Positions 260 to 16,932 of a stretch of DNA of 17,124 nucleotides are shown here, one piece after another. A program made the translations under genes and the position numbers. The stretch covers positions 1 to 17,124 of the forward strand of contig JASLMY010000095.1 of the NCBI GenBank assembly GCA_030746295.1. The letters are read 5' to 3'. The notes below the pieces were generated by a model, which did not search any database, had not been told where the DNA came from, and saw only the letters and a list, made by a program, of their open reading frames with translations. How positions within the stretch are numbered: position 1 is the first letter of the stretch; every line of letters starts with the position of its first letter. This stretch comes from Alphaproteobacteria bacterium (GTDB lineage: Bacteria > Pseudomonadota > Alphaproteobacteria > GCA-2731375).

Positions 260-360
260 CGGGCTGTGTCCCTCTGGCCCGCTATGATACAAGATCGGAA
301 CAAGGAACAGAAAGCCCGCGCCACTGGCTAAGCGGGCCGGTCAGGGAGGGCAGCCAAGCC

Positions 361-1626
361 ATGAACGTCCTCGTCGTCGGCTCCGGCGGCCGCGAGCATG
401 CGCTGGTCTGGGCGCTCGCCGCTTCGCCGCTGGTCGACGCGCTCTACTGCGCCCCCGGCAACGGTGGCATCCAGGCCGACGCCACTTGCGTCGACATCGA
501 CGCCATGGACGCCGACGGCATCGTCGGCTTCTGCCGCTCCGAGGAGATCGAGTTCGTCGTCGTCGGGCCCGAGCAGCCGCTCGTTGCCGGCTTGGTCGAC
601 CGGCTGGACGCGGCCGGCATCAAGGCCTTTGGGCCGAGCGCCGCGGCCGCCCAGTTGGAAGGCTCCAAGGCCTTCACCAAGGACCTCTGCGCCGCCCACG
701 GCATCCCGACCGCACCCTATCGCTGCTTCCGTGGCCTCGACGCGGCCAAGGCTTACATCGAGGCAGAGGGCGCGCCGATCGTCGTCAAGGCCGACGGCCT
801 CGCCGCCGGCAAGGGTGCCATCGTTTGCGAGAGCGTGGCCGAGGCGACGGCGGCGGCCGAGGCGATCCTCGGCGGGCAGTTCGGCGCGGCGGGGGCCGAG
901 ATCGTCGTCGAGGGCTTTCTCGACGGCGAGGAGGCGAGCTTCTTCGCCCTTGCCGACGGCCGCCACGTCCTGCCGCTCGCCACCGCCCAGGACCACAAGC
1001 GGGTCGGCGACGGCGACACCGGTCCCAACACAGGCGGCATGGGCGCCTACTCGCCGGCCCCGGTGATGACCGAGGCCATGGTCGACCAGACCATGAACCG
1101 CATCATCCTGCCGACGGTCGAGGCGATGGCGGCGGCGGGCCGGCCCTTCAAGGGGGTGCTCTACGCCGGCCTGATGATCACGGCCGAAGGGCCGCAGTTG
1201 ATCGAATACAACGTCCGTTTCGGCGACCCGGAGGCCCAAGTGCTGATGCCGCGCCTGCGCTCGGACCTGCTGCCGGCGCTGATCGCCTGCGCCGACGGCG
1301 TCCTCGATCATGCCGACCTGCGCTGGCGCGAAGAGGCGGCGCTGACCGTGGTGATGGCGGCCGACGGCTATCCTGGCGCCTATCACAAGGGCAGCGAGAT
1401 CCGGAACCTGGCCGCAGCCGGCGAGCTGCCCGACATCACCATCTTCCACGCCGGTACCCGCGCCGACGGCGGCCGTATCTATGCCAATGGCGGCCGCGTC
1501 TTGGGGGTGACGGCACTGGGGCCTGAGATCGCCACGGCGAAGGCACGCGCCTATGAGGCGGTCGACGTGATCGACTGGCCGGCGGGCTTCTGCCGCCGCG
1601 ACATCGGTTGGCGGGTGGCCGGCTGA
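361..1626 (+). CDS. purD: Phosphoribosylamine-glycine ligase (GAR synthetase)
   Basis: This 421-residue cytosolic ATP-grasp enzyme joins glycine to 5-phosphoribosylamine using ATP, step two of de novo purine synthesis. The length matches the family (about 420-430). The N-terminus has the GxGGREHA signature (residues 7-14). The ATP-grasp region shows [11 protein letters not shown], then [10 protein letters not shown], then the metal-binding [10 protein letters not shown] segment. An AGGGAGGG ribosome site at 343-350 precedes the ATG by 10 bases. In the 101-bp gap to xseA a TATGAT at 283-288 could serve as a -10 (its reverse complement TATCAT could serve xseA), and a 6-bp GCCCGC/GCGGGC hairpin (314-337) lies in the leader; no purine riboswitch is apparent. 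The gene looks complete and ordinary. Confidence 0.97.
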
Positions 1627-1695
1627 CTGGACCCAAGGCGCAATAGTTGAGAGAATGCGGCCCGTGGGTAGGGGCGGCCCGCGAGGGGTAGGGCT

Positions 1696-2811
1696 ATGAG
1701 CAATCAGATTACTTACGATTCCACCTACGCCGTCGTCGATCCGACGGATTTCCGCCGCATGATCGAGGTCGACCGTTACGGCCGGCGCTCGGACGCGTTC
1801 GACGCCATTATCTCGGCGACGCACGACCACTTCTGGGACCCGTTGGACCCGGCCTATGTCGATTTCTCGATCCCGTTCGATGCCACTGCCGAGTACATGA
1901 TGCCGCCGGAGCGGATGCAGGAGTTCCGCGCCCCTGTCGTGCAAGAGCTGGATCAGGAGCGGAAGTTCGGCCTCTCCAGCCGCATCACCCACTGGCTCTT
2001 GTCCTCGATCCTGCACGGCGAGCAGGCCGCACTTTCGCTCTCGGCCGGGCTCTGCAGCCTGCTGATGGACCCGGGCGCCCAGGAATACGCCGCCAACCAG
2101 GCCCGCGAGGAGGCACGCCACGTCACCGCCTTCGCTCGCTACATCGAGGTCCGTTGGGGCGAGCCGCTGGAGATCGGCCAGGTTCTGGGCGACCTCCTGA
2201 CGGACCTCGTCACCACCGAGGTCGTCTGGAAGAAGCTCGTCGGCATGCAGATGCTGTTGGAAGGCTTGGCCATGGGCGCCTTCGCCAACCTGCATGCCAA
2301 TACGAACGACCCGGTGCTGCGGCGCCTGGTGCAGCTGGTGATGACGGACGAGGCCTTCCACCACAAGTTCGGTAAGATCTGGGCCGAGCGCACCATGCCG
2401 CACATGACCGCGGCCGAGCGCGACGAGATCGAGGATTGGGCCGCCGAGGTCTTCGAGGTCCTGCTCTTCAACCTCGTCAACATCCGCCAGAAGCAGGTCA
2501 TCTATCCCGAGTTCGGTCTCGACTGGGAGGAGGTGCGCGAAGGCGTACGCGAGGTCTATGACGATGCCGACCGTCGCAACGAGCTGAAGGAAGGCACCAA
2601 TGTCTTCCGCGTTCTGACCAAGACGCTCCTCAAGGCCGGCATCATCACCGAGCGGACTCGCGGCCTCTATGCCGGCTGGGTCGACATGGCCGAGCTCGAG
2701 GCGGAAGGCGAGGTCATGGTCGGCGACGCCATCGCCGCCGACGGCATCGAGTTCCTGCGCGCCATCAACAAGAACCGCCGCGCCATCGCCAGCAAGAGCG
2801 CCGTCGCCTGA
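1696..2811 (+). CDS. Ferritin-like diiron-carboxylate protein, function unknown (possible oxygenase)
   Basis: A 371-residue, probably cytoplasmic, mostly helical protein. It shows the two-fold E...ExxH pattern of a diiron four-helix bundle: E109 (in HGEQ), E139-x-x-H142 (EARH), E189 (in LLEG) and E219-x-x-H222 (DEAFHH). The spacing matches ferritin-like, ribonucleotide-reductase-R2-like and N-oxygenase/hydroxylase families. No signal peptide or membrane segment is evident. It starts at ATG 1696 behind GAGGGG (1683-1688). It lies 69 bp after purD and 120 bp before the two kinases, same strand. Established: such centres activate O2 for hydroxylation, desaturation or N-oxidation. Inferred: given the acyl-CoA ligase downstream, a lipid-like substrate is plausible, but none can be named. 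The specific family was not recognised with certainty. Confidence 0.75.
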   Translation: MSNQITYDSTYAVVDPTDFRRMIEVDRYGRRSDAFDAIISATHDHFWDPLDPAYVDFSIPFDATAEYMMPPERMQEFRAPVVQELDQERKFGLSSRITHWLLSSILHGEQAALSLSAGLCSLLMDPGAQEYAANQAREEARHVTAFARYIEVRWGEPLEIGQVLGDLLTDLVTTEVVWKKLVGMQMLLEGLAMGAFANLHANTNDPVLRRLVQLVMTDEAFHHKFGKIWAERTMPHMTAAERDEIEDWAAEVFEVLLFNLVNIRQKQVIYPEFGLDWEEVREGVREVYDDADRRNELKEGTNVFRVLTKTLLKAGIITERTRGLYAGWVDMAELEAEGEVMVGDAIAADGIEFLRAINKNRRAIASKSAVA

Positions 2812-2821
2812 GGCGTTTCCC

Positions 2822-2841
2822 CAACGATTCGGAAATCGTTG
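2822..2841 (+). terminator. Perfect 8-bp hairpin between diiron gene and kinase operon
   Basis: CAACGATT (2822-2829) pairs perfectly with AATCGTTG (2834-2841) around a CGGA loop, ten bases after the diiron gene stop. No T-run follows, so it is not a classic intrinsic terminator. It could attenuate transcription, stabilise an mRNA 3' end or be an operator. Confidence 0.35.
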
Positions 2842-2858
2842 CCGACCGTCCCGGCGGG

Positions 2859-2889
2859 TTGTTCCGGGCGGGGAGGCTTGTGCTAGCAT
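2859..2889 (+). promoter_or_regulatory. Candidate promoter for the kinase-kinase-ligase operon
   Basis: TTGTTC at 2859-2864 is followed, 19 bases on, by TAGCAT at 2884-2889, preceded by a TG one base upstream (extended -10). Transcription would begin near 2896. This argues that the kinase starts at ATG 2932 rather than at the upstream in-frame ATG 2893. Sequence match only; moderate to weak. Confidence 0.35.
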
Positions 2890-2931
2890 CCCTTGCAGTC
2901 GGGTACGCCTCGGAGGCCTCGGAAGACAGCG

Positions 2932-3996
2932 ATGACCCAGTTGGAGGACACGTTCGCCGGCACCATGGCGGTGCGCGAGCAGCACCGTTTCGATCCGGCC
3001 CGCCTGCAGCGCTACATGGAAGCACATGTCGAGGGCTTCTCCGGCAGCCTGGAGGTGGAGCAGTTTCGGGGCGGCCAGTCCTGCCCGACCTACAAGCTCT
3101 CCGCCGGCGGCAAGAGCTATGTCCTGCGCCGCAAGCCGCCCGGTAAGCTGTTGCCCTCGGCGCATGCCGTCGACCGCGAGTGCCGGGTCATCAGCGCCCT
3201 CTACGACACGCCGGTGCCGGTGGCCAAGAGCTACGCCCTCTCAGAGGACGAGAGCATCGTCGGCACCGCCTTCTACATCATGGAATGGGTCGAGGGCCGG
3301 GTCTTCTGGGAGCCGACCCTGCCGGGCCTCTCGAAGGCCGAGCGCGGCGCCGTCTACGACGCCATGAACGAGGTCTTGGCCGAGCTGCACAAGGTCGACT
3401 ACGAGGCCGTGGGATTGGGCGATTTCGGCCGCCCCGGCGACTACTGCGCCCGCCAAATCTCGCGCTGGACCAAGCAGTACAAGGCTTCGGAGACGGAGAA
3501 GATCGAGGCCATGGAGCGGCTGATCGAATGGCTGCCCGAGAACATACCCGGCCCCGACGAGACCACGGTGGTGCATGGCGACTATCGCCTCGACAACATG
3601 ATCTTCCACCCGACCGAGCCGCGGGTCCTGGCGGTCCTCGACTGGGAGCTCTCGACGCTGGGCCACCCCTTGGGCGACTTCACCTATCAGCTGATGGGCT
3701 GGCGCCTCGGCGGCGATCTCTTCCGCGGCGTCGCCGGCGCCGACCTCGAGGCCCTCGGCATCCCGAGCGAGGCGGAATACGTTGCCGCCTATTGCCGGCG
3801 CACCGGGCGCGACGGAATCGACAACCTGGAATGGTACCTCGCCTACAACATGTTCCGGCTCGCCGGCATCCTGCAGGGCATCATGGGCCGGGCGCTCGAC
3901 GGCACGGCGGCCAGCGAGCACGCCTTCGAGCAGGGCAGGCGGGCGCGGCCGATCGCGGAAGCCGCCTGGGCCCAGGTCGAGGCCCTGGCCGGATGA
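2932..3996 (+). CDS. APH/ACAD10-11-like phosphotransferase, copy 1
   Basis: A 354-residue cytosolic kinase of the aminoglycoside-phosphotransferase fold. The N-lobe has the EQFRGGQSCPTY glycine loop (residues 43-54) and a likely ATP-lysine in the RRKPPG segment (K68). The catalytic loop is HGDYRLDN (215-222, D217 as base, N222 for metal) and the second metal motif is DWE (237-239). SETE and RLIEWLPEN stretches are typical of the subfamily annotated as phosphotransferase family protein. ATG 2932 is preferred because GGAAGACA lies just upstream; an in-frame ATG at 2893 would add 13 unconserved residues. Family knowledge: relatives (LvaA, ACAD10/11 N-domains) phosphorylate hydroxyacyl-CoAs, not antibiotics. 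The next gene is a paralogue with overlapping start. Exact substrate is unknown. Confidence 0.85.
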   Translation: MTQLEDTFAGTMAVREQHRFDPARLQRYMEAHVEGFSGSLEVEQFRGGQSCPTYKLSAGGKSYVLRRKPPGKLLPSAHAVDRECRVISALYDTPVPVAKSYALSEDESIVGTAFYIMEWVEGRVFWEPTLPGLSKAERGAVYDAMNEVLAELHKVDYEAVGLGDFGRPGDYCARQISRWTKQYKASETEKIEAMERLIEWLPENIPGPDETTVVHGDYRLDNMIFHPTEPRVLAVLDWELSTLGHPLGDFTYQLMGWRLGGDLFRGVAGADLEALGIPSEAEYVAAYCRRTGRDGIDNLEWYLAYNMFRLAGILQGIMGRALDGTAASEHAFEQGRRARPIAEAAWAQVEALAG

Positions 3997-5045
3997 GCGA
4001 GGCCCACGACGGCGTCGAGATCGTCCCGGTCCGCGAAGCGCACCGCCTGGACGAGGCCGCCCTGGCGCGCCACCTGACGACCCATCTCGACGGATTCGAG
4101 GGCCCGCTCAGGGTCAGCCAGTTCGAGGGCGGGCAGTCGAACCCGACTTATCTGTTGCAGACGCCGGGTTGCCAATACGTCATGCGCAAGAAGCCGCCCG
4201 GCGAGCTCTTGCCCTCGGCGCACGCGGTCGACCGAGAATACCGAGTGATGACCGCACTGGCCGAGACCGACGTACCGGTGCCCGAGACACTGCTTTTCGT
4301 CGAGGACGAGAGCATCGTCGGCACGCCATTCTTCATTATGCAACGGGTCGCCGGCCGAGTCCTCGTCGATCCCTTGCTGCCCGGCCTCTCGGCCGCCGAC
4401 CGGCGCGCCCTTTACGACCACTTCGCCGAAGTTCTGGCTGCATTGCACACGGTCGACCACGAGGCGGTGGGACTTGGCGACTTCGGCCGCCCCGGCAGCT
4501 ACTACGCCCGCCAGATCGGCCGCTGGACCAAGCAGTACCGCGCTTCGGAGACCGAGGACATCCCGGCCATGGACCGCCTGATCGAATGGTTGCCGGAGAA
4601 CGTGCCGGAATCGGACACGGTCTCGATCGTGCACGGCGACTACCGGATCGGTAACTGCATCGTCCACCCGACCGAGCCCCGGATCGTCGCGGTCCTGGAC
4701 TGGGAGCTCTCGACGCTAGGCCACCCGCTGGCCGACCTCTCCTATGCCTGCATGGGCTATCACGCCGACCTGGGCCATATCGAGAGCTTCATCGGCATCG
4801 ACTTCGAGGCCACGGGCATTCCCACCGAAGCCGCCTTCGTCGCCCGCTACTGCGCCGCCACCGGCCGCGAGGAAATCGAGAACTGGAGCTTCTACGTCGC
4901 TTTCTCGCTCTTCCGCATAGCGGCGATCGTGCAGGGGGTCTACAAGCGCGGCCTCGACGGCATCGCCTCCTCCGAGCGCGCCATCGGCTTCAAGGACGAC
5001 TGCCGGCTCCGCGCCGAGCAGGCCTGGGAGCTGGTGCGGGATTGA
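3993..5045 (+). CDS. APH/ACAD10-11-like phosphotransferase, copy 2
   Basis: A 350-residue paralogue of the preceding gene, starting inside its stop (ATGA, 3993-3996), so translation is probably coupled. Shared blocks include GGQS-PTY, RKPPGxLLPSAHAVDRE, DESIVGT, AVGLGDFGRPG and RWTKQYxASETE. The catalytic loop is HGDYRIGN (214-221) and the metal motif DWE (236-238), so kinase residues are intact. It differs from copy 1 mainly in the C-terminal substrate half (CMGYHADLGHIESF versus QLMGWRLGGDLFRG) and in IG for LD in the catalytic loop. This suggests an old tandem duplication with substrate divergence or a heterodimer. The frame is also open upstream through copy 1, but that part reads as an arginine-rich shadow and is not coding. 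Cytosolic; substrate unknown, hydroxyacyl-CoA plausible. Confidence 0.85.
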   Translation: MSEAHDGVEIVPVREAHRLDEAALARHLTTHLDGFEGPLRVSQFEGGQSNPTYLLQTPGCQYVMRKKPPGELLPSAHAVDREYRVMTALAETDVPVPETLLFVEDESIVGTPFFIMQRVAGRVLVDPLLPGLSAADRRALYDHFAEVLAALHTVDHEAVGLGDFGRPGSYYARQIGRWTKQYRASETEDIPAMDRLIEWLPENVPESDTVSIVHGDYRIGNCIVHPTEPRIVAVLDWELSTLGHPLADLSYACMGYHADLGHIESFIGIDFEATGIPTEAAFVARYCAATGREEIENWSFYVAFSLFRIAAIVQGVYKRGLDGIASSERAIGFKDDCRLRAEQAWELVRD

Positions 5046-5061
5046 GCCTCGGGGGCGGCCG

Positions 5062-6609
5062 ATGACGATGCAGCTGACGCAGGCGCTGAAACGGGCCGCC
5101 CAGATCAACCGAAACGGCATTGCCACCGAGTTCGGTGAGCGACGGCGGTCCTGGTCCGAGTTCGCCCGGCGGGTGGCCAGGCTCGCCGGCGCCCTTCGCG
5201 GGCTCGGCATCGCGCCGGGCGACCGGGTGGCGATCCTGGCTCTCAACTCGGACCGCTATCTCGAATATTTCTTTGCCGTCGCCTGGGCCGGCGGCGTCTT
5301 CGTGCCGGTCAACACTCGCCTCGCCGGGCCCGAGGTCGTCTACTGGCTGAACGATTCCGAGAGCCGGGTCCTCTTCCTCGACGATAACTTCCACCACCTC
5401 TTCGAGGAGATCCGCGCCGAGCTGGAGACGATCGAGAACGTCGTCTACATGGTCGACGACGCCTCGCCCCAGGGCATGCTGCCCTACGAGGAGCTGGTCG
5501 CCGGCGCCGAGGCGGCCCCGGACGCGCTTGCCGGCGGCGGCGACCTCGCCGGCATCTTCTACACCGGCGGCACCACCGGCCGCTCCAAGGGCGTGATGTT
5601 GAGCCATACCAACCTCGTCTCCAACGCCTTCAACATGATGCCGGCGATGCAGTTCACCGAGGCCTCGTCCTATCTGCACGCGGCGCCGATGTTCCATCTG
5701 GCGGACGGCGCCTGCACCTTCGCGGTGACCATGACCGGGGGCCGGCACAGCTTCATCTCCAGCTTCGATCCGGCCGCGGCGCTGGAGGCTCTCGACCGCT
5801 ATCGGGTCAGCAACGGGCTCTTCGTGCCGACCATGATCAACATGATGGTGCAGCACCCGGACGTCGGCCGCCACGACCTCTCGCATCTGAGGCGGGTGAT
5901 GTACGGCGCCTCGCCGATGCCCGACGCGGTGCTGGCCCGGGCCATGGCGCTGATGCCGGAGGTCGCCTTCTGGCACGGCTACGGCCAGACCGAGGCGGCG
6001 CCGGCCCTGACCCAACTGGCGCCCGAGCATCACGAGACGCGCCGGGGCTCGATCGGCCGCGCCGTCCTCGGCGCCGAGATCCGGATCTTGGATACCGACG
6101 ACCGCGAGCTGCCACGGGGGCAGGTCGGCGAGATCTGCGGCCGCGGCCCCAACGTTATGCTCGGCTACTGGAAGCAGCCGGAGCTGACCGCCGAGACGCT
6201 TCGCGGCGGCTGGCTGCATACCGGCGACGGCGGCTACATGGACGCGGACGGCTTCGTCTACATCGTCGACCGGTTGAAGGACATGATCATCTCGGGCGGC
6301 GAGAACGTCTACTCGGCCGAGGTCGAGAACGCCATCCACCAGCACGCCGCGGTGGCGGAGTGCGCCGTCATCGGCGTGCCGGACAGCGACTGGGGCGAGC
6401 GGGTCCACGCCGTCGTCCGGTTGCTCGAGGGCGAGACGCTCTCCGAGGCGGCGTTGATCCACCATTGCCGGGGCCTGATCGCCAACTACAAGTGCCCCCG
6501 AAGCGTCGACTTTCGCGACGAGCCCCTGCCCTTGAGCGGCGCCGGCAAGATCCTCAAGACCGAGCTCAGAAGACCCTTCTGGGAGGGCCATGAGAAGCAG
6601 GTCAACTGA
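5062..6609 (+). CDS. AMP-forming acyl-CoA synthetase (fatty-acid-CoA ligase family)
   Basis: A complete 515-residue ANL-superfamily ligase that activates a carboxylic acid with ATP to an acyl-adenylate and then to a CoA thioester. The P-loop is YTGGTTGRSKG (167-177), the adenylate motif GYGQTE (306-311), then TGD (387-389), the hinge DRLKDMIISGGENVY (403-417) and the C-terminal catalytic lysine in SGAGKILK (K496). It starts 16 bases after the kinase stop, so it is very likely cotranscribed. A second in-frame ATG lies two codons in. The family includes long- and medium-chain ligases; chain length cannot be read from sequence. Next to two APH-like kinases, the layout resembles levulinate-type pathways, in which an acid is CoA-activated and then phosphorylated on a hydroxyl. 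Confidence 0.9.
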   Translation: MTMQLTQALKRAAQINRNGIATEFGERRRSWSEFARRVARLAGALRGLGIAPGDRVAILALNSDRYLEYFFAVAWAGGVFVPVNTRLAGPEVVYWLNDSESRVLFLDDNFHHLFEEIRAELETIENVVYMVDDASPQGMLPYEELVAGAEAAPDALAGGGDLAGIFYTGGTTGRSKGVMLSHTNLVSNAFNMMPAMQFTEASSYLHAAPMFHLADGACTFAVTMTGGRHSFISSFDPAAALEALDRYRVSNGLFVPTMINMMVQHPDVGRHDLSHLRRVMYGASPMPDAVLARAMALMPEVAFWHGYGQTEAAPALTQLAPEHHETRRGSIGRAVLGAEIRILDTDDRELPRGQVGEICGRGPNVMLGYWKQPELTAETLRGGWLHTGDGGYMDADGFVYIVDRLKDMIISGGENVYSAEVENAIHQHAAVAECAVIGVPDSDWGERVHAVVRLLEGETLSEAALIHHCRGLIANYKCPRSVDFRDEPLPLSGAGKILKTELRRPFWEGHEKQVN

Positions 6610-6620
6610 GCCATTCTCGC

Positions 6621-6661
6621 CCGTCTCGTGCCGCCGGGCGCTGCCGGCGCGGGTGAGACGG
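6621..6661 (+). terminator. Nested GC-rich hairpin after the acyl-CoA synthetase
   Basis: CCGTCTC (6621-6627) pairs with GAGACGG (6655-6661), and inside it CGCCGG (6632-6637) pairs with CCGGCG (6644-6649). It begins 12 bases after the stop codon. No T-tract follows, so a factor-dependent end or RNA-stabilising structure is as likely as an intrinsic terminator. Confidence 0.45.
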
Positions 6662-6720
6662 CCAATTGGCGGCGGCTCCATTGACGACGATCAAGGGGTA
6701 GTGCTGCGGAATTCGCGAGA

Positions 6721-6757
6721 GTTGTGTAAAGTGTATAAAGTAGTTGTGCCGGCACAA
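6721..6757 (+). promoter_or_regulatory. AT-rich promoter-like segment with a 14-bp perfect palindrome upstream of the FecR gene
   Basis: TATAAA at 6734-6739 stands out in a GC-rich background and is preceded by near-repeats (GTGTAAAG and GTATAAAG). Directly downstream, TTGTGCC-GGCACAA (6744-6757) is a perfect inverted repeat that would cover the start of transcription if TATAAA is the -10. This is where a repressor would bind. No convincing -35 was found (TTGACG at 6681-6686 is too far upstream). Regulator unknown. Confidence 0.45.
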
Positions 6758-6792
6758 GGTCGAGGCGCCCGAGTAGAGGGGGAGGGAAGCCG

Positions 6793-7239
6793 ATGCGTAT
6801 CGTAGCTGTGGCAGCGCTGCTGGTCGCGGCGTTATGGGTTGGGCCGTCGGCGGCGGCGGAGGATGCCATCGGCAGCGTCAAGACGGTCGAGGGCAGCGCC
6901 CATGTCGAGCGCGCCGGCAAACGCGAGGCGGCCAAGGTCGGCACCGCGGTATTCCGCCACGACGCCCTGCAGACCGGCAAGGACGGCAGCATGGGCGTGA
7001 CGCTGAAAGACGAGACCATGATCTCGGTCGGACCCAACACCGAGCTCCATCTCGACAGCTTCGCCTTCGAGCCCGAGGAAAAGAAATACTCGTTCGTCAC
7101 CCGGATTAGCCGCGGCACCCTCTTCTATGTCTCCGGCCTGATCGCCAAGCTGTCGCCGCAGTCGACCAAGGTGGTGACGCCAGGCGGCACGGTGGGCGTC
7201 CGCGGCACCCGCTTCGTCGTCCGGGCCGGCGGCAAGTAG
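6793..7239 (+). CDS. Secreted FecR-domain protein (periplasmic)
   Basis: A 148-residue protein with a cleavable signal peptide (MRIVAVAALLVAALW, likely cut after the AAA at 20-22) followed by a single FecR domain: VGTAVFRHDALQTGKDG (about 49-65), ISVGPNTELHLDSFAF and GTVGVRGTRFVV near the C-terminus. Unlike true FecR sigma regulators it has no cytoplasmic anti-sigma helix and no transmembrane anchor, so it should be free in the periplasm. A strong purine-rich ribosome site (GAGGGGGAGGGAAG) precedes ATG 6793. Seventeen bases separate it from the OmpA-domain lipoprotein, so the two are probably one operon. Small FecR-domain proteins of this sort occur near CHASE2 cyclases, one of which is encoded nearby on the other strand; a signalling partnership is inference. 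Confidence 0.85.
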   Translation: MRIVAVAALLVAALWVGPSAAAEDAIGSVKTVEGSAHVERAGKREAAKVGTAVFRHDALQTGKDGSMGVTLKDETMISVGPNTELHLDSFAFEPEEKKYSFVTRISRGTLFYVSGLIAKLSPQSTKVVTPGGTVGVRGTRFVVRAGGK

Positions 7240-7255
7240 AAGGGAGCGGGAGGCC

Positions 7256-7873
7256 ATGACACCCAACCGTTTCCCCGCCGCCCTGACGGCGGCCATCCTG
7301 GCGACGCTGTTGCTGCTGGCCGGTTGCGGCGGCCTTCCCGACAACGCGGTAGTGCTGCTGGCGAACGCGGACGGCAGCGTCGGTGAGGTCGAGGTCGCCA
7401 ACGCCGGCAAGAGCCAGGTCCTCAGCAAGGTCAACGAGGGTACCGAGCTTCGCGCCAAGCAGGCTCCTGGCGAGGTCTTCGTCGCCAAGCAGGAAGACGT
7501 CGACAAGGTCTTCGGCAAGGCGATCGCCGCCAGCCCCGAGCCGCCGGTCAGGTTCCTGATCTATTTCGAGAGCGGCGGTGCCGTGCTGACGTCTGAGTCA
7601 GAGCAGCAGCTGCCGAAGATTCTCGAGGCCATCGGCGCCCGTCCCGCGCCCGAGGTCGATATCAGCGGCCACGCCGACCGCGCCGGCTCGACGGAGTTGA
7701 ACAACAAGCTGGCGCTCGAGCGAGCCCAGGCGGTCAGGGAGCGAATCGTCGCCATCGGCGTCGACCCGGCCCGGATCTCGGTCTCCTCGCACGGCGAGAA
7801 CAACCCCTTGATCCCGACCGAAGACGACGTCGCCGAGCCGCGCAACCGCCGGGTCGAGGTGGTCGTCAAATAG
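7256..7873 (+). CDS. OmpA-domain lipoprotein (peptidoglycan-binding)
   Basis: A 205-residue protein with a lipoprotein signal ending in the lipobox LLAGC (lipidated C24). A linker of about 80 residues follows, then an OmpA-like C-terminal domain (about 95-205): IYFESGGAVLTSES, DISGHADRAGSTELNNKLALERAQAV (the NxxL...RA peptidoglycan-binding region), SSHGENNPL and RNRRVEVVVK. It should be anchored in a membrane by its lipid and bind diaminopimelate of peptidoglycan. GGGAGG lies just before ATG 7256. It shares an operon with the FecR-domain gene. It converges on the amidohydrolase with only 34 bp between stops. It resembles Pal in fold but not in its N-terminal half, and no tol genes are present, so it is not called Pal. 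Confidence 0.88.
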   Translation: MTPNRFPAALTAAILATLLLLAGCGGLPDNAVVLLANADGSVGEVEVANAGKSQVLSKVNEGTELRAKQAPGEVFVAKQEDVDKVFGKAIAASPEPPVRFLIYFESGGAVLTSESEQQLPKILEAIGARPAPEVDISGHADRAGSTELNNKLALERAQAVRERIVAIGVDPARISVSSHGENNPLIPTEDDVAEPRNRRVEVVVK

Positions 7874-7907
7874 GCCGCCGGGGACGGGGTGGCACCGGTC
7901 TTTCTAA

Positions 7908-8949: not shown

Positions 8950-11097
8950 CTATTTGCTGGCGAAGACGATTGTGGCGCCGTGCTCGCCGGCCTCCAGGCG
9001 CTCGAGGTGGAAACGGACCAAGGGGTCGTCGGGGCACTGACGGCCGAGGGCGCGGAAGGCCTCCTGCGCCCCGGGGTCGGATGCCTCCAGCAGCCCGAAG
9101 GCCTCGAGGTAGGCGTCGGTCTCGGGCGCCTGCATCCGTGCCGGCGGCAGCGGCTCGAAGGTCGGCACGGCCTCGCGCTTGCCGACCAGCATCAGGGTCC
9201 CGATCGGCCGGCCTTGGAACTGGGGGCAGCCGGCGACGGTGCTGGCGGCGACGCAGATATTGGTGCCGAGCTGGCGGTTGGCGTTTTCCAGGCGCGAGGC
9301 GGTGTTGACCGCATCGCCGAGGGCGCGATAGTCGAACAGCGACTTGCCGCCGACGTTGCCGATGGTGACGAGGCCGGTGTTGACGCCGATCCGGGTGCGC
9401 CCCAAGGGCAGTCCACGCTGTTGCCGCTCGGCCGCGAAGTCGCTGGCGAAGGTGTCCATCTCGAGGGCGCAGGCGACGGCGCGGGCGGCGTGGTCGTCTT
9501 GCTGCACCGGGGCCGAGAACATCACCGCGACGGCGTCGCCGATGATCCGGTCGAGGGTGCCCTCGTGCGCCAGCGCGATTTTGACCATGCCGTCGAGATA
9601 GTCGTTCAAGACCTCAACCACGGCGTCCGGCTCCGAGCCTTCGACCATGGCCGTGAAGCCGGCGAGATCGGTCAGCACGAACGAGCACTCGCGGCGCTCG
9701 CCGCCGAGGCTGAGCGCGTCGGGGTGATCGATCAGGTGCTGCACCAGGTTGGGCGAGATGTAGCTGGAGAAGGCTTGCCGGATCCAGCGCTGCTGGCGCT
9801 CGCTCTGGATATGGCGGGGCAGAGAGCAGGCGAGGTAGAGGGCCACCGTCGCCAGTGCCGGCAGCACCGGGTCGACGAGCAATCCATAGGCACTGAAGGC
9901 ATGCCAGGACGCGAAGACGGCGGCGCCGCCGACCAGTATCGCGATCACCGCCGACCAGATGGCGCCGAGATAGGACAGCATCACCAGCAGTAGGATCCAA
10001 AGACCGAGCAGGAACAAGGCCTCGGCGGCGCTGGCCCAGTCGGGGCGGATCAGGAAGGACCCCTCCAATACCTGCTCCACGGCCTGGGCGTGGACCTCGA
10101 CACCGGCGGCGAAGCCGAAGGGGGTGAACCGCAGGTCCTTGAGGCCGGCGGCCGAGGTGCCGACGAAGACGATGCCGTCCTTGAGCGTGTCTTTCTCGAC
10201 CTTCCCCGCCAGCAACCGCCAGGCCGGGAGGTAGCGGGCCGTAGACGGCTCCGAATAGTGCAGCCAGAGCTGCCCCGTCGGATCAGTCGGGATGACGAAA
10301 GGACCGGTCTTGACCGAGAGGATGCCCGTCTCCTCGCCGAAGCGGTCGGCACCGCTGGCACCGGCCGACTTGACGAAGTAGCTCTTGGCGCCGGCGGCGA
10401 GCCTGAGGGCCTCGCTCATCAGCGTGGGGTGGATTTCGTCGCCGATCCGCACCAGCACCGGTATCCGGCGAATGACGCCGCCGGCATCGCCGGTGAAGTG
10501 AAGGGCGGCATTGCCGGCCACGGCTCGCTGGAACATCGGCAGCGAGACCACGGCCCCCGCTGCCGTCGGCAGGAACGGCCTCGGGTCGCCGCCGGCGGTG
10601 GCAACTCCTGCCTTCCTGTCCGGGGCGCCGTTGATCCCCGGTGCGTCGGCCAAGGCAAAACCGATGACCACTCGGCGCCCTGCCAACGCCTCGGCGAATT
10701 GGCGATCGGGATCGGTGAGGCCCTCGATCAGCTCGGCGACGGCGGGCCGTTCGGCCCAGGGCGCCAGCATTGCTTCCGGCGAATGGCGATCCGGCTCGGC
10801 AAAGATGACGTCGAAGGCGACGACCTTGGCCCCGGCCTCGAACAGTCGCTCGACGATCTCGGCCATTCGCGCCCTGGGCCAGGGCCACTGGCCGAGGCGG
10901 CTGAGGCTTTCGTCGTCGATGTCCAGGATCTTGACGCCGACGTCTCGGTAGGGCCGAGGCTGCCAACGTTGGTAGCTGTCGAAGGCGAGATTGCGGAGCG
11001 CCGCGGTCTCTCGCGGCTCGATGACGAGCGTGGTCAGCGCCAAGGCCAGCACCACGAGCGATGTCCAAAAGCCGGCATTGCGCAACATGCCCCGCAT
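8950..11097 (-). CDS. CHASE2-domain class III adenylate/guanylate cyclase, membrane-bound
   Basis: A 715-residue sensor enzyme. From ATG 11097 there is one N-terminal membrane helix (about 8-26), a periplasmic CHASE2 sensor domain (about 35-345; VKILDIDDESLSRLGQWPW and the later GIVFVGTSAAGLKD are typical), three more helices (about 358-425) and a cytosolic class III cyclase domain (about 465-650). Metal aspartates are D477 (LTDLAGFT) and D521 (IIGDAV). The transition-state pair N598 and R602 is in GDAVNTASRLE. The base-selecting lysine position is R517 (LDRIIGD), so nucleotide preference is uncertain. A TTG at 11124 extends the frame but overlaps a TTGACA box and lacks a ribosome site. The likely product is cAMP, acting with the divergent HD-domain protein as a possible hydrolase. 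Confidence 0.9.
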   Translation of the reverse strand: MRGMLRNAGFWTSLVVLALALTTLVIEPRETAALRNLAFDSYQRWQPRPYRDVGVKILDIDDESLSRLGQWPWPRARMAEIVERLFEAGAKVVAFDVIFAEPDRHSPEAMLAPWAERPAVAELIEGLTDPDRQFAEALAGRRVVIGFALADAPGINGAPDRKAGVATAGGDPRPFLPTAAGAVVSLPMFQRAVAGNAALHFTGDAGGVIRRIPVLVRIGDEIHPTLMSEALRLAAGAKSYFVKSAGASGADRFGEETGILSVKTGPFVIPTDPTGQLWLHYSEPSTARYLPAWRLLAGKVEKDTLKDGIVFVGTSAAGLKDLRFTPFGFAAGVEVHAQAVEQVLEGSFLIRPDWASAAEALFLLGLWILLLVMLSYLGAIWSAVIAILVGGAAVFASWHAFSAYGLLVDPVLPALATVALYLACSLPRHIQSERQQRWIRQAFSSYISPNLVQHLIDHPDALSLGGERRECSFVLTDLAGFTAMVEGSEPDAVVEVLNDYLDGMVKIALAHEGTLDRIIGDAVAVMFSAPVQQDDHAARAVACALEMDTFASDFAAERQQRGLPLGRTRIGVNTGLVTIGNVGGKSLFDYRALGDAVNTASRLENANRQLGTNICVAASTVAGCPQFQGRPIGTLMLVGKREAVPTFEPLPPARMQAPETDAYLEAFGLLEASDPGAQEAFRALGRQCPDDPLVRFHLERLEAGEHGATIVFASK

Positions 11098-11211
11098 GGG
11101 GGGGCCAGTCGCGGCGTTTGTCAAGACAGATCGGAAAACGGGAGGGCGGCTTTACATGTCAATTTAGTGTATTACATATCGGCGACTGGGGTGCACAGGA
11201 AGTCAAAATCC
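11098..11211. promoter_or_regulatory. Divergent promoter region between cyclase and HD phosphohydrolase
   Basis: This shared upstream region is AT-rich from 11151 to 11180. Forward: TTTACA (11151-11156) with ACATAT 17 bases on (11174-11179) is a weak promoter pair, and AGGAAGT (11197-11203) is the ribosome site for ATG 11212. Reverse: TTGACA occurs twice, as the complement of 11157-11162 and of 11119-11124, but neither has a good -10. TGTA-T-TACA (11168-11176) is a small operator-like inverted repeat inside the forward promoter. Confidence 0.4.
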
Positions 11212-12069
11212 ATGTTCAATGCGACCGAAATCGTGATCGACGCCTTCGTCGAGCGGCTGCAAGAGAAATACCAGCGGGTCTATGGCCTTTTGGAGCCGGA
11301 GTATCCGAGCATTTTGGCCTTCGTCGGCCGCATGGCGTTGGAGAACATCGCCAACAGCGACGCGCCGTATCACGACGTCGGCCACACCTGCATGGTCACC
11401 GACGTCGGCCAGGAGATCTTGAGGGGCCGGCACATCACCGAAGGCGACGTCTCGCCTGGCGACTGGCTCCACTTCGTCATCGCCCTGCTCTGCCACGACA
11501 TCGGCTACGTCCGCGGCGTCTGTCACGGCGACGGTGACGGCAGATACGTGATTGACGCCCGAGGCGAGACCACGACCCTACCGCCGGGCGCGACCGACGC
11601 CTCGTTGACGCCCTATCACGTCAACCGCTCCGAGATTTTCGTCAGAGAGCGTTTTCGAAAGGTGCCCAAAGTCGACGTCGAGGCGGTGCTCGTCAACATC
11701 GAGCACACCCGTTTCCCGGTGCCCGAGGACGAGGCCCACAAAGGCACCGACAGCTTTCCGGGCTTGCTGCGCGCCGCCGACCTGATCGGCCAGTTGGCCG
11801 ATATCGACTATCTGCGCAAGGGACCGGCGCTTTTCGCCGAATTCCAGGAGACCGGCATGAACGCGCGGCTGGGCTACAGGACGCCGGCCGATCTCAGGGC
11901 CGCCTATCCGAAATTCTTCTGGGGCAACGTAGAGCCTTACATCGGATCGGCAATCCGCTATCTGCGCGTCACCCAGCAGGGCAAGCTCTGGGTCGCCAGT
12001 CTCTATGCGCACGTCTTTTCCGAAGAGCACCAGGCCCCGTCGCTGGGCGCCGAGCGGGCCATCGCCTAG
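11212..12069 (+). CDS. HD/PDEase-like metal-dependent phosphohydrolase (putative cyclic-nucleotide phosphodiesterase)
   Basis: A 285-residue soluble, all-helical protein with an HD-superfamily metal site. YHDVGHTCMVTDV (53-65) resembles the YHNxxHAxDV signature of class I cyclic-nucleotide phosphodiesterases. LCHDIGYVRG (94-102) gives the HD pair H95/D96, EHTRF (164-168) adds further histidine, and AADLIGQLADIDYLRK (188-203) gives a late metal aspartate D190. No sensor domain or membrane segment is present. ATG 11212 has AGGAAGT nine bases upstream; the long upstream open frame is antisense to the cyclase and is rejected. It is divergent from a class III cyclase, fitting a make/break pair for one cyclic nucleotide; that role is inferred. 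Its TAG stop overlaps the stop of the convergent reductase gene. Confidence 0.78.
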   Translation: MFNATEIVIDAFVERLQEKYQRVYGLLEPEYPSILAFVGRMALENIANSDAPYHDVGHTCMVTDVGQEILRGRHITEGDVSPGDWLHFVIALLCHDIGYVRGVCHGDGDGRYVIDARGETTTLPPGATDASLTPYHVNRSEIFVRERFRKVPKVDVEAVLVNIEHTRFPVPEDEAHKGTDSFPGLLRAADLIGQLADIDYLRKGPALFAEFQETGMNARLGYRTPADLRAAYPKFFWGNVEPYIGSAIRYLRVTQQGKLWVASLYAHVFSEEHQAPSLGAERAIA

Positions 12070-13518: not shown

Positions 13519-14634
13519 ATGAGCGATGAGATGGCGGCATTCGCTGAGGCCGAGGTCGCCGGCCGCGACGATCTGGTGGGCGCGGAGACGGTGCCGGCGG
13601 CGCTCTGGCGCGGCTTCGGCCGGGCCGGGCTCTTCGCCCTCGGCTTGCCCGAGAGCTATGGCGGCCGTGGCGGCGGCTACGCCGAGATCGCCGCCGCCGC
13701 CGCCACGCTCGCCGCCGTCGGCGGCTGCCTCGGGCTGGCCACCTCCTATTCCCTGCAATGCCTGGTGCCGCGCTTCTTCGTCCTCGGCTTCGGCGACGAG
13801 CGCCAGAAGAAGGCGCTGCTGGGGAAGTTGGCGACGGCCGAGATCACGGTCTCGGTGGCGATCTCGGAGCCCGAGGCAGGCGCGCATCCCAAGCACCTGG
13901 CGACCGCCGCCCGACGCGACGGCGACGCGGTCGTCATCGACGGCGCCAAGCACTGGCTCACCAACGGGCCGATGGCGGATCTCTTCATCGTCCTCGCGGT
14001 CAGCGGCCAAGAGGCGGCCAGAAAACGCTTCTCGGCCTATCTGGTGCCGCGCTCGACGCCGGGCCTGGAGATCGTGCCGATGGCGCCGCTCGGCTTCCTC
14101 GAGCCTTCGCCGCACTGCGGCCTCCGGCTCGACGCTTGCCGGCTTCCCGCCGATGCCCGGCTTGGCCCCGAGGGCGGCGCCTTCGAGGCCATGGCGGGGC
14201 CGCTGCGCGATTTGGAGGACGCGGTGATGACGGGCGCACTGGCCGGTGCTGCGCGCTGGCAGCTCGACCGCCTCGGTGAGCTGGCGGCGGCCAAGGGGCT
14301 CGACGACGGGGAGGCGCTCGAAACCCTGGGCGGCCTCGCGGAACGCCTGGCCGTGCTCGAGGCGGCGGCGCTGCGGGCAGCGGCCGAGCTCGACGCCGCG
14401 CCGCTCGGCGAGCCGCCGAGCTCGGCCATCGCCGGCGGCTTCCGGCTGATCGCCGGGCGCTTCCAGGAGATCGTCTCCGGCTTCGTCCGGGACCATGAAA
14501 TCGGTGGCGATCCGGCCCTCGAGCGGGTAACAAGGGACCTCACCAAGTCGCTCGGAATCGCCCTCCAGGCCCGAGGCGCCCGGCGGCGAAAGCGGGGCGC
14601 GGCCCTGATCGGAGCATCCAAGGGAACGTCATGA
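13519..14634 (+). CDS. Acyl-CoA dehydrogenase-like flavoprotein, catalytic region degenerate
   Basis: A 371-residue protein of acyl-CoA dehydrogenase (ACAD) length and layout: helical N-domain with [16 protein letters not shown] (41-56), the flavin-binding middle domain [13 protein letters not shown] (115-127) and [10 protein letters not shown] (141-150), then a C-terminal helical domain. Normal ACADs end with a GGxGY...ERxxRD...YEGT segment whose Glu or another helix supplies the base. Here the end is [21 protein letters not shown], with no YEGT and a basic tail (RGARRRKRG). Alpha,beta-dehydrogenation by the usual mechanism is therefore doubtful; a nitroalkane-oxidase-like or structural role is possible. 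Its stop overlaps the moxR-type start (ATGA, 14631-14634), so it is the first gene of a coupled three-gene operon. Confidence 0.8.
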
Positions 14635-15599
14635 ACGCCAATCGGCAAGAGAAACTGGCCAGCGTCGAGAGCATCACCGAGGGGCTGCGCAGCGTCGACT
14701 ACATCGCCTCGCGCCGCATCGCCACCTCGATCTTCGTCGCCGCCAGCCTGCAGAAGCCGATCCTGGTCGAGGGGCCGGCCGGCGTCGGCAAGACCGAGCT
14801 GGCGCTCTCCACCGCGGCTTGGCTCGATCTGCCGCTGATCCGCATGCAGTGCTACGAGGGCCTCGACGAGGCCAAGGCGCTCTACGAGTGGAAATACGGC
14901 AAGCAGCTTCTCTACACCCAGATTCTGAAGGAGAAGCTGGGCGACGTGATCGACGGCACCAAGAACCTGGACGAGGCCCTGGAGCGCCTGCGCCACCAGG
15001 GCGACGTCTTCTATTCCGAGCAGTTCCTGGAGCCGAGACCGCTTCTGAAGGCGCTCCGCCAGGACCATGGCGCGGTCCTGCTGATCGACGAGATCGACAA
15101 GTCGGACGAGGAGTTCGAGGCCTTCCTCTTGGAGATCCTCTCCGACTACCAGGTCTCGATCCCCGAGATCGGCACCGTCAAGGCGACGACGCCGCCCTTC
15201 GTTTTCCTGACCTCGAACAATACCCGCGAGATGGGCGACGCGCTGAAGCGGCGCTGCCTGCATCTCTTCATTCCCTTCCCCGACAGCCGCACCGAGGAGC
15301 GCATCGTCGCCGCCCGCCTGCCCGAGATCGCGAAAGACCTCAACCGGCAGCTCGTCGCCTTCATCCAGCAACTCCGCTCGGAGGACCTGAAGAAGCTGCC
15401 CTCGCTCGCCGAGACGCTTGATTGGGCCCGCGTCCTGATGCTCTTGAACGCCGATCAGCTGGAGGTCGAGCTCGTCCGCGACACCCTCAACGTGCTGCTG
15501 AAATTCGAGGTCGATATCGAGCAGGTCTCGCCCCGGGTCGTGGAGATGACCCGCAAGTCGGCGCGCGAGGCGGGCATCGGCGATGCAGCCCGCGCTTGA
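14631..15599 (+). CDS. MoxR-family AAA+ ATPase (CoxD-like)
   Basis: A 322-residue cytosolic AAA+ ATPase. Walker A is GPAGVGKT (48-55), Walker B VLLIDEID (149-156), sensor 1 LTSNNTRE (193-200), an arginine finger candidate in ALKRRCLHLF (R207/R208), and a sensor 2 region near SLAETLDWARVL (258-269). MoxR ATPases work with VWA-domain partners to insert metals or remodel enzymes; CoxD does this for the copper-molybdenum CO dehydrogenase. AAGGGA (14620-14625) precedes the ATG. The gene overlaps the ACAD-like gene before it and the VWA gene after it (17 bases), typical of a MoxR/VWA pair. No CO dehydrogenase gene is in the window, so the client is unknown. Confidence 0.92.
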   Translation: MNANRQEKLASVESITEGLRSVDYIASRRIATSIFVAASLQKPILVEGPAGVGKTELALSTAAWLDLPLIRMQCYEGLDEAKALYEWKYGKQLLYTQILKEKLGDVIDGTKNLDEALERLRHQGDVFYSEQFLEPRPLLKALRQDHGAVLLIDEIDKSDEEFEAFLLEILSDYQVSIPEIGTVKATTPPFVFLTSNNTREMGDALKRRCLHLFIPFPDSRTEERIVAARLPEIAKDLNRQLVAFIQQLRSEDLKKLPSLAETLDWARVLMLLNADQLEVELVRDTLNVLLKFEVDIEQVSPRVVEMTRKSAREAGIGDAARA

Positions 15600-16932
15600 C
15601 CGCTTTCTGAAGGCGCTCCGCGCCGCCGAGGTCCCGGTCTCGGTGCGCGAGACGCTGGAGGCCTACCAGGTCACCGGCATCGTCGGCTTCGACGACCGCC
15701 GCCGCCTGAAGGACGCCCTCGCCGTCACGGTGGCCAAGTCGGCGGATGAGAAGGACCGCTTCGATGCCTGCTTCGACCTCTTCTTCGATCGCGAGGCGGC
15801 GGCGGCGCCGGCTCTGCCGACGGCGCTCGATGACGAGGGAAGTACCGAGCTCGAGATCGAGGCGCCGGAGATCGTCGAGCTATTGAACCAGGCCAATGTC
15901 GAGGCCATCGCCGCGGCCATGGAGGCGGCGGCGAACCGGGCCGGCGTTGCCGAGATCCGCTACACCACCCAGCGCGGCATCCTGGCCCGGCGGATGCTGG
16001 ACGAGATGGGGCTGCGCCAGTTGGAGCAGATGATCTGGGGCCTGCGGCGCCAGGGCCGGCCCGCCGGCCTGGCTCAGGCGCAAGCCTTGGAGGCCGGCCG
16101 CACTTACCTGTTGGAGGAGGCGCGGCGCTTCGTCGACCGCCAGATCCAGCTCTACGCGGTGCCGAACTCCGAGCGGCTGAGAGAGGAGTTCCTGGAGGAG
16201 TCGCGGCTCTCCAGCCTCGAGATCCGCGACCTCGATCGGATGCAGCGGATCGTCCGCCGCATGGCCAAACGCCTGGCCGAGAAGCACACCCGGCGGCTGC
16301 GCCGGCTCAAGCGCGGCCGCCTCGACATCGCCCGCACGATCCGCCGCAACATGGGCCACGACGGCGTGCCCTTCGAGCTCTATTGGCGGCAGCGGCGGAT
16401 CGACAAGCCCAAGGTGGTGGCGATCTGCGACGTCAGCCGCTCGGTCAGCCAAGCGGCCCGCTTCCTGCTGCTCTTCCTCTACAGCCTGAACGAGGTCTTG
16501 GCCGAGGTTCGGGCCTTCGCCTTCTCCGACCGCCTGGCCGAGGTCAGCCAGACGCTCGACGAGGAAACGGCGGAAGAGGCGATCATCCAAGTGCTGGACA
16601 AGATCGGCTTCCGGCCGACCGACTACGGCCGCATGCTGGAGGACTTCGAGGCCGACTACCTCGGCGACGTCGACCGCAAGACCACGGTGATCATCCTTGG
16701 CGACGGGCGCTCCAACAACACCGACCCGCGCGCCGACTTGCTGGAGGCGATCTACCGGCGCGCCAAGCGGGTGATCTGGCTCAACCCCGAGCCCAGGCCC
16801 TTCTGGGGCAGCGGCGACAGCGAGATGCCCCGCTACGTCCCCTACTGCCACATCGCCAAGGTCTGCAACACGGTCAAGCACCTGGAGCGGGTCATCGACG
16901 ATTTGCTGATCGCCGCCGCCCGCGGCGGTTGA
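15583..16932 (+). CDS. CoxE-type VWA-domain protein, MoxR partner
   Basis: A 449-residue soluble protein. The N-terminal half (about 1-260) is helical and charged, with an arginine-rich segment (RLRRLKRGRLDIARTIRRNM, 238-257) that is standard in the VWA_CoxE family. The VWA domain (about 275-400) has the metal-ion-dependent adhesion site D283-x-S285-x-S287 (CDVSRSVS), a TDYG segment (346-349) that may give the threonine ligand, and the late aspartate D374 in ILGDGRSNN. The C-terminus ends PYCHIAKVCNTVKHLERVIDDLL. ATG 15583 overlaps the ATPase stop, so translation is coupled. The pair most likely acts as a maturation chaperone. A 6-bp CCGCCG/CGGCGG hairpin (16913-16928) spans the stop region. 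Confidence 0.9.
   Translation: MQPALDRFLKALRAAEVPVSVRETLEAYQVTGIVGFDDRRRLKDALAVTVAKSADEKDRFDACFDLFFDREAAAAPALPTALDDEGSTELEIEAPEIVELLNQANVEAIAAAMEAAANRAGVAEIRYTTQRGILARRMLDEMGLRQLEQMIWGLRRQGRPAGLAQAQALEAGRTYLLEEARRFVDRQIQLYAVPNSERLREEFLEESRLSSLEIRDLDRMQRIVRRMAKRLAEKHTRRLRRLKRGRLDIARTIRRNMGHDGVPFELYWRQRRIDKPKVVAICDVSRSVSQAARFLLLFLYSLNEVLAEVRAFAFSDRLAEVSQTLDEETAEEAIIQVLDKIGFRPTDYGRMLEDFEADYLGDVDRKTTVIILGDGRSNNTDPRADLLEAIYRRAKRVIWLNPEPRPFWGSGDSEMPRYVPYCHIAKVCNTVKHLERVIDDLLIAAARGG

Follow-up and report, generated by a model that had tools for sequence, protein, structure and literature searches.

What could join a predicted diiron protein, two kinases and an acyl-CoA ligase in one gene run behind purD? 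The question is raised by a 17,124-nucleotide stretch of an alphaproteobacterial genome (assembly GCA_030746295.1, contig JASLMY010000095.1), referred to here as the window, in which genes for a diiron protein (DI), two kinases (K1 and K2) and an acyl-CoA ligase (LIG) follow one another on the same strand. An initial annotation, made from the sequence alone, had read them as a possible cassette for the phosphorylation of hydroxyacyl-CoAs. Our analysis suggests that the operon is probably the front half of a catabolic route for 4-hydroxyacyl-CoAs, of the kind represented by LvaA-LvaC and ACAD10-ACAD11, which DI would have joined as an oxygenase in one lineage.

In the proposed route, LIG would produce the CoA ester of a 4-hydroxy acid, or of an acid derived from a keto acid or lactone. 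K1 and K2 would phosphorylate the 4-hydroxyl of this ester, perhaps with a division of labour based on stereochemistry or chain length. An acyl-CoA dehydrogenase (ACAD) of the LvaC type, encoded elsewhere, would then eliminate the phosphate and deliver a 2-enoyl-CoA to beta-oxidation, while DI would, with a slight lean in favour, act on a related acyl substrate. The scheme presumes a single transcript, the position of the hydroxyl on the substrate, the order of the steps and any role of DI. Genomes and loci used for comparison carry G and L numbers, respectively.

The kinases and their probable dehydrogenase partner

K1 and K2 are two intact kinases of the APH fold, as initially annotated: Pfam APH scores are 174.6 bits for K1 and 182.5 bits for K2, and the motifs HGDYRLDN and LDWE in K1 and HGDYRIGN and LDWE in K2 are complete. 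HGDxxxxN is present in 141 of the 142 kinase family members collected. The best solved homologues of both, aligned over nearly the full length, are the kinase domain of mouse ACAD11 (8v3v; E=3.4e-89 for K1 and 3.5e-85 for K2) and the bacterial protein 3dxp (E=3.9e-143 and 5e-126). PMC12440821 singles out the catalytic D220, N225 and, from modelling, two arginines that touch CoA, one beside the alpha-C glutamate and the other R176. All of these residues are kept in K1 (D217, N222, R82, R174) and in K2 (with R81 and R173 as the arginines). The first arginine, R86 in that paper, apparently corresponds to R83 in HMMER chain numbering; its match rests on the described position, because this offset disagrees with the +1 of D220 and R176. 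According to PMC11342911, the kinase domains of ACAD10/11 are 29% identical to LvaA, a bacterial orthologue can substitute for the kinase domain of ACAD10, and ACAD10 prefers the R form. With near full-length homology, PKL catalytic motifs and the putatively CoA-contacting arginines, the assignment of K1 and K2 to the ACAD10/11-LvaA type is well supported by their sequences.

In a rapidly built tree of 142 kinase genes with three references, K1 falls in a large, weakly supported clade that holds 44 of the 48 purD-linked kinases and also 3dxp; the rows closest to K1 come from G071, G005, G001, G191 and G285. K2 and other "second" kinases fall outside this clade, and the starred branches require this label to have changed at least twice. 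Tandem pairs thus appear to join older subfamilies. A recent duplication giving rise to K1 and K2 is rejected by their separate placement and by the identity of only 202 of 354 aligned positions.

In ACAD10/11 and LvaC, R626, H634 and R637 bind the phosphate, as stated in PMC12440821; an LvaC-type ACAD would be marked by these residues together with a catalytic Asp. Of 289 alphaproteobacterial genomes searched with K1, 103 gave a match at E<=1e-60, and close homologues of the LvaC-type ACAD were found in 104 of the same genomes at E<=1e-120. Both occur together in 98 genomes, which corresponds to 98 of 103 kinase genomes and 98 of 104 ACAD genomes. All eight loci fetched in the ACAD search and checked for the HCMR signature have it. 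Scanning the loci in six frames for R-x4-R-x2-HC-x-R returned 48 open reading frames (ORFs), of which 46 read RLGPGRIHHCMR or RLGPGRVHHCMR; one is a variant (L124) and one is false (L187), lacks the HCMR ending and was omitted from later counts. An HCMR-type ACAD lies within 6 kb of the kinase in 42 of 125 kinase loci, compared with a rough expectation of about 0.5% per kinase. For 38 of the 52 kinase genes with such a neighbour, the ACAD is on the opposite strand.

This class-wide linkage, read from gene positions and signatures, supports a function as 4-hydroxyacyl-CoA kinases. Together with the homology to ACAD11 and 3dxp and the CoA-contact residues, it lends good support to the earlier idea of LvaA/ACAD10-11-like hydroxyacyl-CoA kinases. 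The LvaC-type partner and the link between purD and K1 described below go beyond the initial annotation. An ACAD with the HCMR signature followed by DGPxEVH is encoded in all 15 genomes of the taxonomic order that contains G071 (the LvaC-type ACAD of G302 at C18:40660-41865), and an LvaC-type gene is presumably located elsewhere in the genome from which the window derives.

The diiron protein, the ligase and the conservation of the run

DI is assigned to Pfam AurF by a weak score above the cut-off (34.4 versus 29.6 bits). The putative ligands E109, E139xxH142, E189 and E219xxH222 are invariant in 70 homologues, and the predicted model is helical. DI is therefore predicted to have the 2-His/4-carboxylate pattern of ferritin-like proteins (E, ExxH, E, ExxH on a helical bundle), which agrees with its first description as a diiron-centre protein. 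It belongs to a large family with at least 5,626 homologues at E<=1e-5. Foldseek with the DI model gave no match at E<=0.001; the 50 matches listed in a structural alignment (VIA-align) are R2-type proteins, and other families remain compatible. The open-access literature searched contained nothing on point that links a diiron protein to 4-hydroxyacyl-CoA.

The order containing G071 comprises 15 genomes, in which DI and K1 were counted at E<=1e-120. K1 is found in 14 and DI in eight of them, and K2 directly follows K1 in 13 of the 14 K1 genomes, the contig ending at this point in the fourteenth. G302 (L333) contains the complete order DI-K1-K2-LIG, with identities of 72, 80, 69 and 59% and gaps of 26, -4 and 17 nt; an MFS transporter gene follows LIG, and purD and xseA are located further upstream. 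Because the same genes occur there in the same order with operon-like spacing, the four-gene run is more than chance. In four genomes, G302, G071, G001 and G301, a same-strand DI gene stops no more than 2.5 kb before K1; in G001 and G301, one gene intervenes. In G071 (L124:5117-11080), an LvaC-like ACAD (RLAPARLTHCMR), a luciferase-like flavoprotein, DI, K1 and K2 form one run, which is possibly a catabolic cluster. As to conservation of the four-gene run across genomes, it is complete in G302, DI precedes K1-K2 in some other genomes of the order, and no instance was found beyond that order. Judged by gene content and order, DI-K1-K2-LIG appears to be a genuine variant of the LvaA-LvaC/ACAD10-11 pathway that is restricted to one lineage.

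LIG is a CoA ligase, as initially called, with matches to Pfam AMP-binding (301.9 bits) and AMP-binding_C and to NCBIfam PRK06187 (525.9 versus a cut-off of 476). It adjoins K2 in the window and in G302; more distant ligases (31-48% identity) sit near other members of the kinase family. Of the 142 kinase genes, 18 have a same-strand ligase no further than 4 kb away, including the window's own pair, which shares one ligase; roughly 4% would be expected, and the binomial p of 9e-5 for 17 of 141 is inflated by near-copy genomes. Examples are the ligase-kinase pairs in L268 and L270 and the kinase-ACAD-ligase runs in L277, L279 and L283. That LIG makes the CoA ester is plausible on these grounds, although its homologues elsewhere lie off the K1 contig. 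In G300, LIG immediately precedes a gene for an AAA ATPase and a CoxE-like gene identified by eye.

The purD link and the weighing of alternative explanations

The genomic context of K1 was examined in 83 regions, comprising the best matches of 81 of the 103 kinase genomes (L122, L124-L203) together with L003 (G001) and L120 (G003). The best K1 match is preceded on the same strand by purD at 300 bp or less in 39 regions, and seven more have purD within 5 kb. A second kinase directly follows K1 in 13 regions, and DI is present in two (L003, L124). Class-wide, the gene that follows purD is K1, not DI.

A block of xseA (minus strand), purD (plus strand), K1 (plus strand) and sometimes K2 (plus strand) recurs in L120, L122, L126, L128, L133, L136-L141 and others. 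Many such blocks contain an LvaC-type ACAD a few kb further on, on the other strand, and in effect represent a split ACAD11 locus beside a purine gene. L122 belongs to the cultured Sneathiella litorea, which has purD-K1-K2 and an LvaC-type ACAD. In L144 and L150, with purD upstream of K1, K1 and the LvaC-type ACAD are convergent and nearly touch (about 58 and 162 bp). Split pairs also occur outside the purD context: in L296, L303 and L196, kinase and LvaC-type ACAD share a strand and are separated by about 18-170 bp.

Several observations weigh against a 4-hydroxyacyl-CoA route that includes all four genes. Across its 17 kb, the window gave no LvaC-type ACAD in the signature scan. The co-occurrence counts are raw with respect to kinship and genome size, several genomes being near-copies (e.g., G037, G166 and G264), and DI (37 of 39 genomes) and LIG (47 of 51) likewise sit mostly within the set of kinase genomes. 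Co-occurrence alone is weak evidence for these reasons, and adjacency is the stronger fact. Residue 51 of K1, in the GQSNPT motif, is Cys and not the Asn seen in 127 of 142 family members; Cys is found at this site in four of the 142, including the K1 of G071, and also in the K1 of G302. In other genomes of the order, LIG homologues are on contigs different from that of K1, and in the ligase tree the LIG proteins of the window and G302 share a group without internal resolution with ligases encoded away from K1 in sister genomes. A 4-hydroxyacyl-CoA pathway offers no obvious role for linkage to purD, and 37 of the 83 regions lack purD within 5 kb or end early (36 with none in the stretch, one near a contig end). 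Finally, DI is not near K1 in G002, G294, G295 and G300, and no such kinase was found near DI in 79 of the best 80 of at least 587 confirmed DI loci, the only exception being L003; of these 80 loci, 59 have at least 2.5 kb of flank on both sides.

The last two observations speak for a competing explanation, to which we give somewhat less than an even chance: only K1 and K2, with LIG, would form a hydroxyacyl-CoA module, and DI would be an independent oxygenase that came to lie upstream by chance in one lineage. Some flanks of the DI loci are short, but the DI neighbours that were seen vary, with a purC-like gene in many Reyranella-type loci and GNAT-like or ClpA-like genes in Sneathiella-type loci (by eye). 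DI is also missing from seven of the 15 genomes of the order, and in the window 120 nt separate DI and K1. The shorter gaps in G302 (26 nt) and G071 (77 nt), all on the same strand, speak against coincidence, as does the position of DI just upstream of K1-K2 in four of the eight DI-bearing genomes. The DI tree can be used on either side. The window DI falls in one supported group (with P0006, apparently the DI of G302) and those of L124 and L003 in another, so that the three are not one clade and DI proteins from at least two supported clades are found beside these kinases; DI would have joined or been replaced beside K1 more than once, or have been lost frequently. The linkage behind the proposal that the diiron protein belongs to the pathway was seen only in the window and these four genomes, all within one order. 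The odds between DI acting on a related acyl substrate and being a bystander are about even, and the arrangements in G302 and G071 lead us to lean slightly to involvement. A more specific version, in which DI oxygenates fatty acids or acyl-CoAs at C-4 (gamma), is unlikely. The operon would then install a 4-hydroxyl and erase it by phosphorylation and elimination, as an O2-dependent bypass of beta-oxidation for a blocked chain, with K1 and K2 taking opposite enantiomers. Very unlikely is a function of DI as an AurF/CylC-like N-oxygenase or halogenase in an operon that makes or modifies a specialised metabolite. It would fit the AMP-binding ligase and the Pfam AurF matches of 68 of 70 DI homologues (E<=0.01), but the Pfam-scanned proteins of the window include no carrier-protein or synthase family. 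Furthermore, the motifs differ from those given in PMC12101540, where AurF has a 3-His/4-carboxylate site with HxxDExxH, and CylC has QExxH and HxxDExxH. DI reads V215-x2-D218-E219-x2-H222, without the third His of AurF-type N-oxygenases, and E138-E139-x2-H142 with V215-x2-DExxH in place of the CylC-type dimetal halogenase motifs.

For the kinases, an improbable explanation is that K1 is a housekeeping enzyme in or near purine metabolism, or acts on a metabolite of growing cells, and owes its likeness to acyl-CoA kinases to family inheritance. It would account for the frequent position of K1 behind purD, which extends to genomes of 1.4-1.7 Mb. However, an LvaC-type ACAD is found no more than 6 kb from 29 of the 48 purD-linked kinases, both genes co-occur genome-wide, and the kinase motifs match ACAD11. 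The conserved gene order around xseA-purD may by itself carry the link. There is next to no likelihood that K1 and K2 are antibiotic-type aminoglycoside or macrolide phosphotransferases, as might be read from the Pfam fold and weak NCBIfam matches to APH(3') and Mph(A). The NCBIfam scores are far below the cut-offs (34.4 and 38.4 versus a curated 205 bits for APH(3'), which excludes both from these aminoglycoside kinases, and 23.3 versus 550), and the matches to the ACAD11 kinase domain and 3dxp are nearly full-length. A 4-hydroxyacyl-CoA route remains the reading that we favour.

Gene layout of the window and comparison with known systems

The ORFs at 1696-6609 confirm four consecutive genes on one strand, the last three of which are packed tightly, with a 4-nt overlap between the K1 stop and the K2 start and 16 nt between K2 and LIG (Table 1). 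An alternative upstream start of K1 is a TTG at 2893. Consensus scans of 300-7900 found no promoter, the DI-K1 gap included; terminator-like sites on the plus strand number two, both within K2 and none in the DI-K1 gap. A notable RNA fold in this gap was rejected, since the full stretch folds within the range of shuffled sequences (z -0.64).

Table 1. Features of the window discussed in the text.
Feature	Position	Strand	Basis or remark
purD (phosphoribosylamine-glycine ligase)	361..1626	+	NCBIfam TIGR00877, 538 bits; directly upstream of DI
DI, predicted ferritin-like diiron oxygenase/oxidase, 371 aa	1696..2811	+	
DI-K1 intergenic stretch, 120 nt	2812..2931	+	8-bp perfect hairpin at 2822-2841
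K1, ACAD10/11-LvaA-type kinase, 354 aa	2932..3996	+	ACAD11/3dxp matches, tree, motifs
K2, second ACAD10/11-LvaA-type kinase, 350 aa	3993..5045	+	ACAD11 match, tree, motifs
LIG, acyl-CoA ligase, 515 aa	5062..6609	+	Pfam AMP-binding, NCBIfam PRK06187; relative at same position in G302
ACAD-like protein	13519..14634	+	Pfam; 42% to L120:8938-10089; member of syntenic block
AAA ATPase, presumably MoxR-type, same syntenic block	14631..15599	+	Pfam AAA_5
CoxE-type VWA protein, same syntenic block	15583..16932	+	Pfam VWA_CoxE; L120 order

The window opens with a partial gene on the minus strand that has OB-fold Pfam matches and that we take to be xseA. In L120, the order is purD-K1-ACAD-MoxR-CoxE, and its ACAD gene, which sits between K1 and MoxR-CoxE, corresponds to the ACAD-like gene of the window. 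By this synteny, the window may be viewed as the L120 block with DI and the stretch from K2 onward placed within it. The ACAD-like gene was rejected as LvaC, since it has neither a match to the C-terminal ACAD domain nor R-x4-R-x2-HCMR. Between LIG and the remaining block lie genes for a FecR-domain protein and then an OmpA-family protein (6793-7873), a minus-strand gene for a 724 amino acid protein with CHASE2 and an adenylate/guanylate cyclase catalytic domain (8950-11124), and an ORF with HD-like His/Asp motifs by eye and no Pfam match (11203-12069).

If the proposed route is correct, a purD-linked, split pathway of the ACAD10/11 type would be widespread in Alphaproteobacteria, and one lineage would tie a diiron oxygenase and a ligase to it. 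Its enzymes would be separable, its tandem kinases could be compared for selectivity towards stereoisomers or chain lengths, and the large diiron family, for which no tested function was met in our analysis, would gain a candidate class of substrates. The conserved purD link is a puzzle for this pathway and is easy to test. In the open-access literature searched, nothing on point was found for the link between purD and the kinase, nor was a diiron-kinase-ligase operon found.

Among known diiron proteins, cyanobacterial ADO, which acts on fatty aldehydes, has ligand residues that align with those of DI (profile E=1.5e-4). In contrast to the matched ADO chains of about 212-265 residues, DI has 371, and its NCBIfam ADO score is 19.8 bits versus a cut-off of 222.65. 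R2lox and ribonucleotide reductase R2 are 8-17% identical to DI in the listed rows, with Foldseek E no better than 1.3e-3, and no function follows from this similarity. DI shares Pfam AurF with AurF and CylC, and AurF 2jcd ranks fourth in Foldseek, but the third His and the QExxH/HxxDExxH motifs are absent.

For K1 and K2, the strong homologue 3dxp is labelled "putative acyl-CoA dehydrogenase", and no reported function came up for it. The kinase chemistry is already known from LvaA and ACAD10/11, and PMC11342911 and PMC12440821 described the mammalian route through ACAD10/11 for 4-hydroxy acids in 2024-2025. The window has kinases and a ligase but no ACAD with the LvaC signature, unlike an lva operon of kinase, LvaC-type ACAD and ligase; no model-based search for LvaB or LvaD was made. 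The window resembles the mammalian ACAD10/ACAD11 and the lva system of Pseudomonas putida (LvaA-LvaC) in the catalytic and CoA-contact residues and in its kinase family, whose members are paired genome-wide with an ACAD of the LvaC type; a ligase of the AMP-forming kind adjoins the kinase, and lva likewise encodes LvaE. Kinase and ACAD are separate genes both here and in lva, but the operon of the window lacks the ACAD. What sets the run apart from both systems is its tandem kinases, the added diiron gene and the link to purD.

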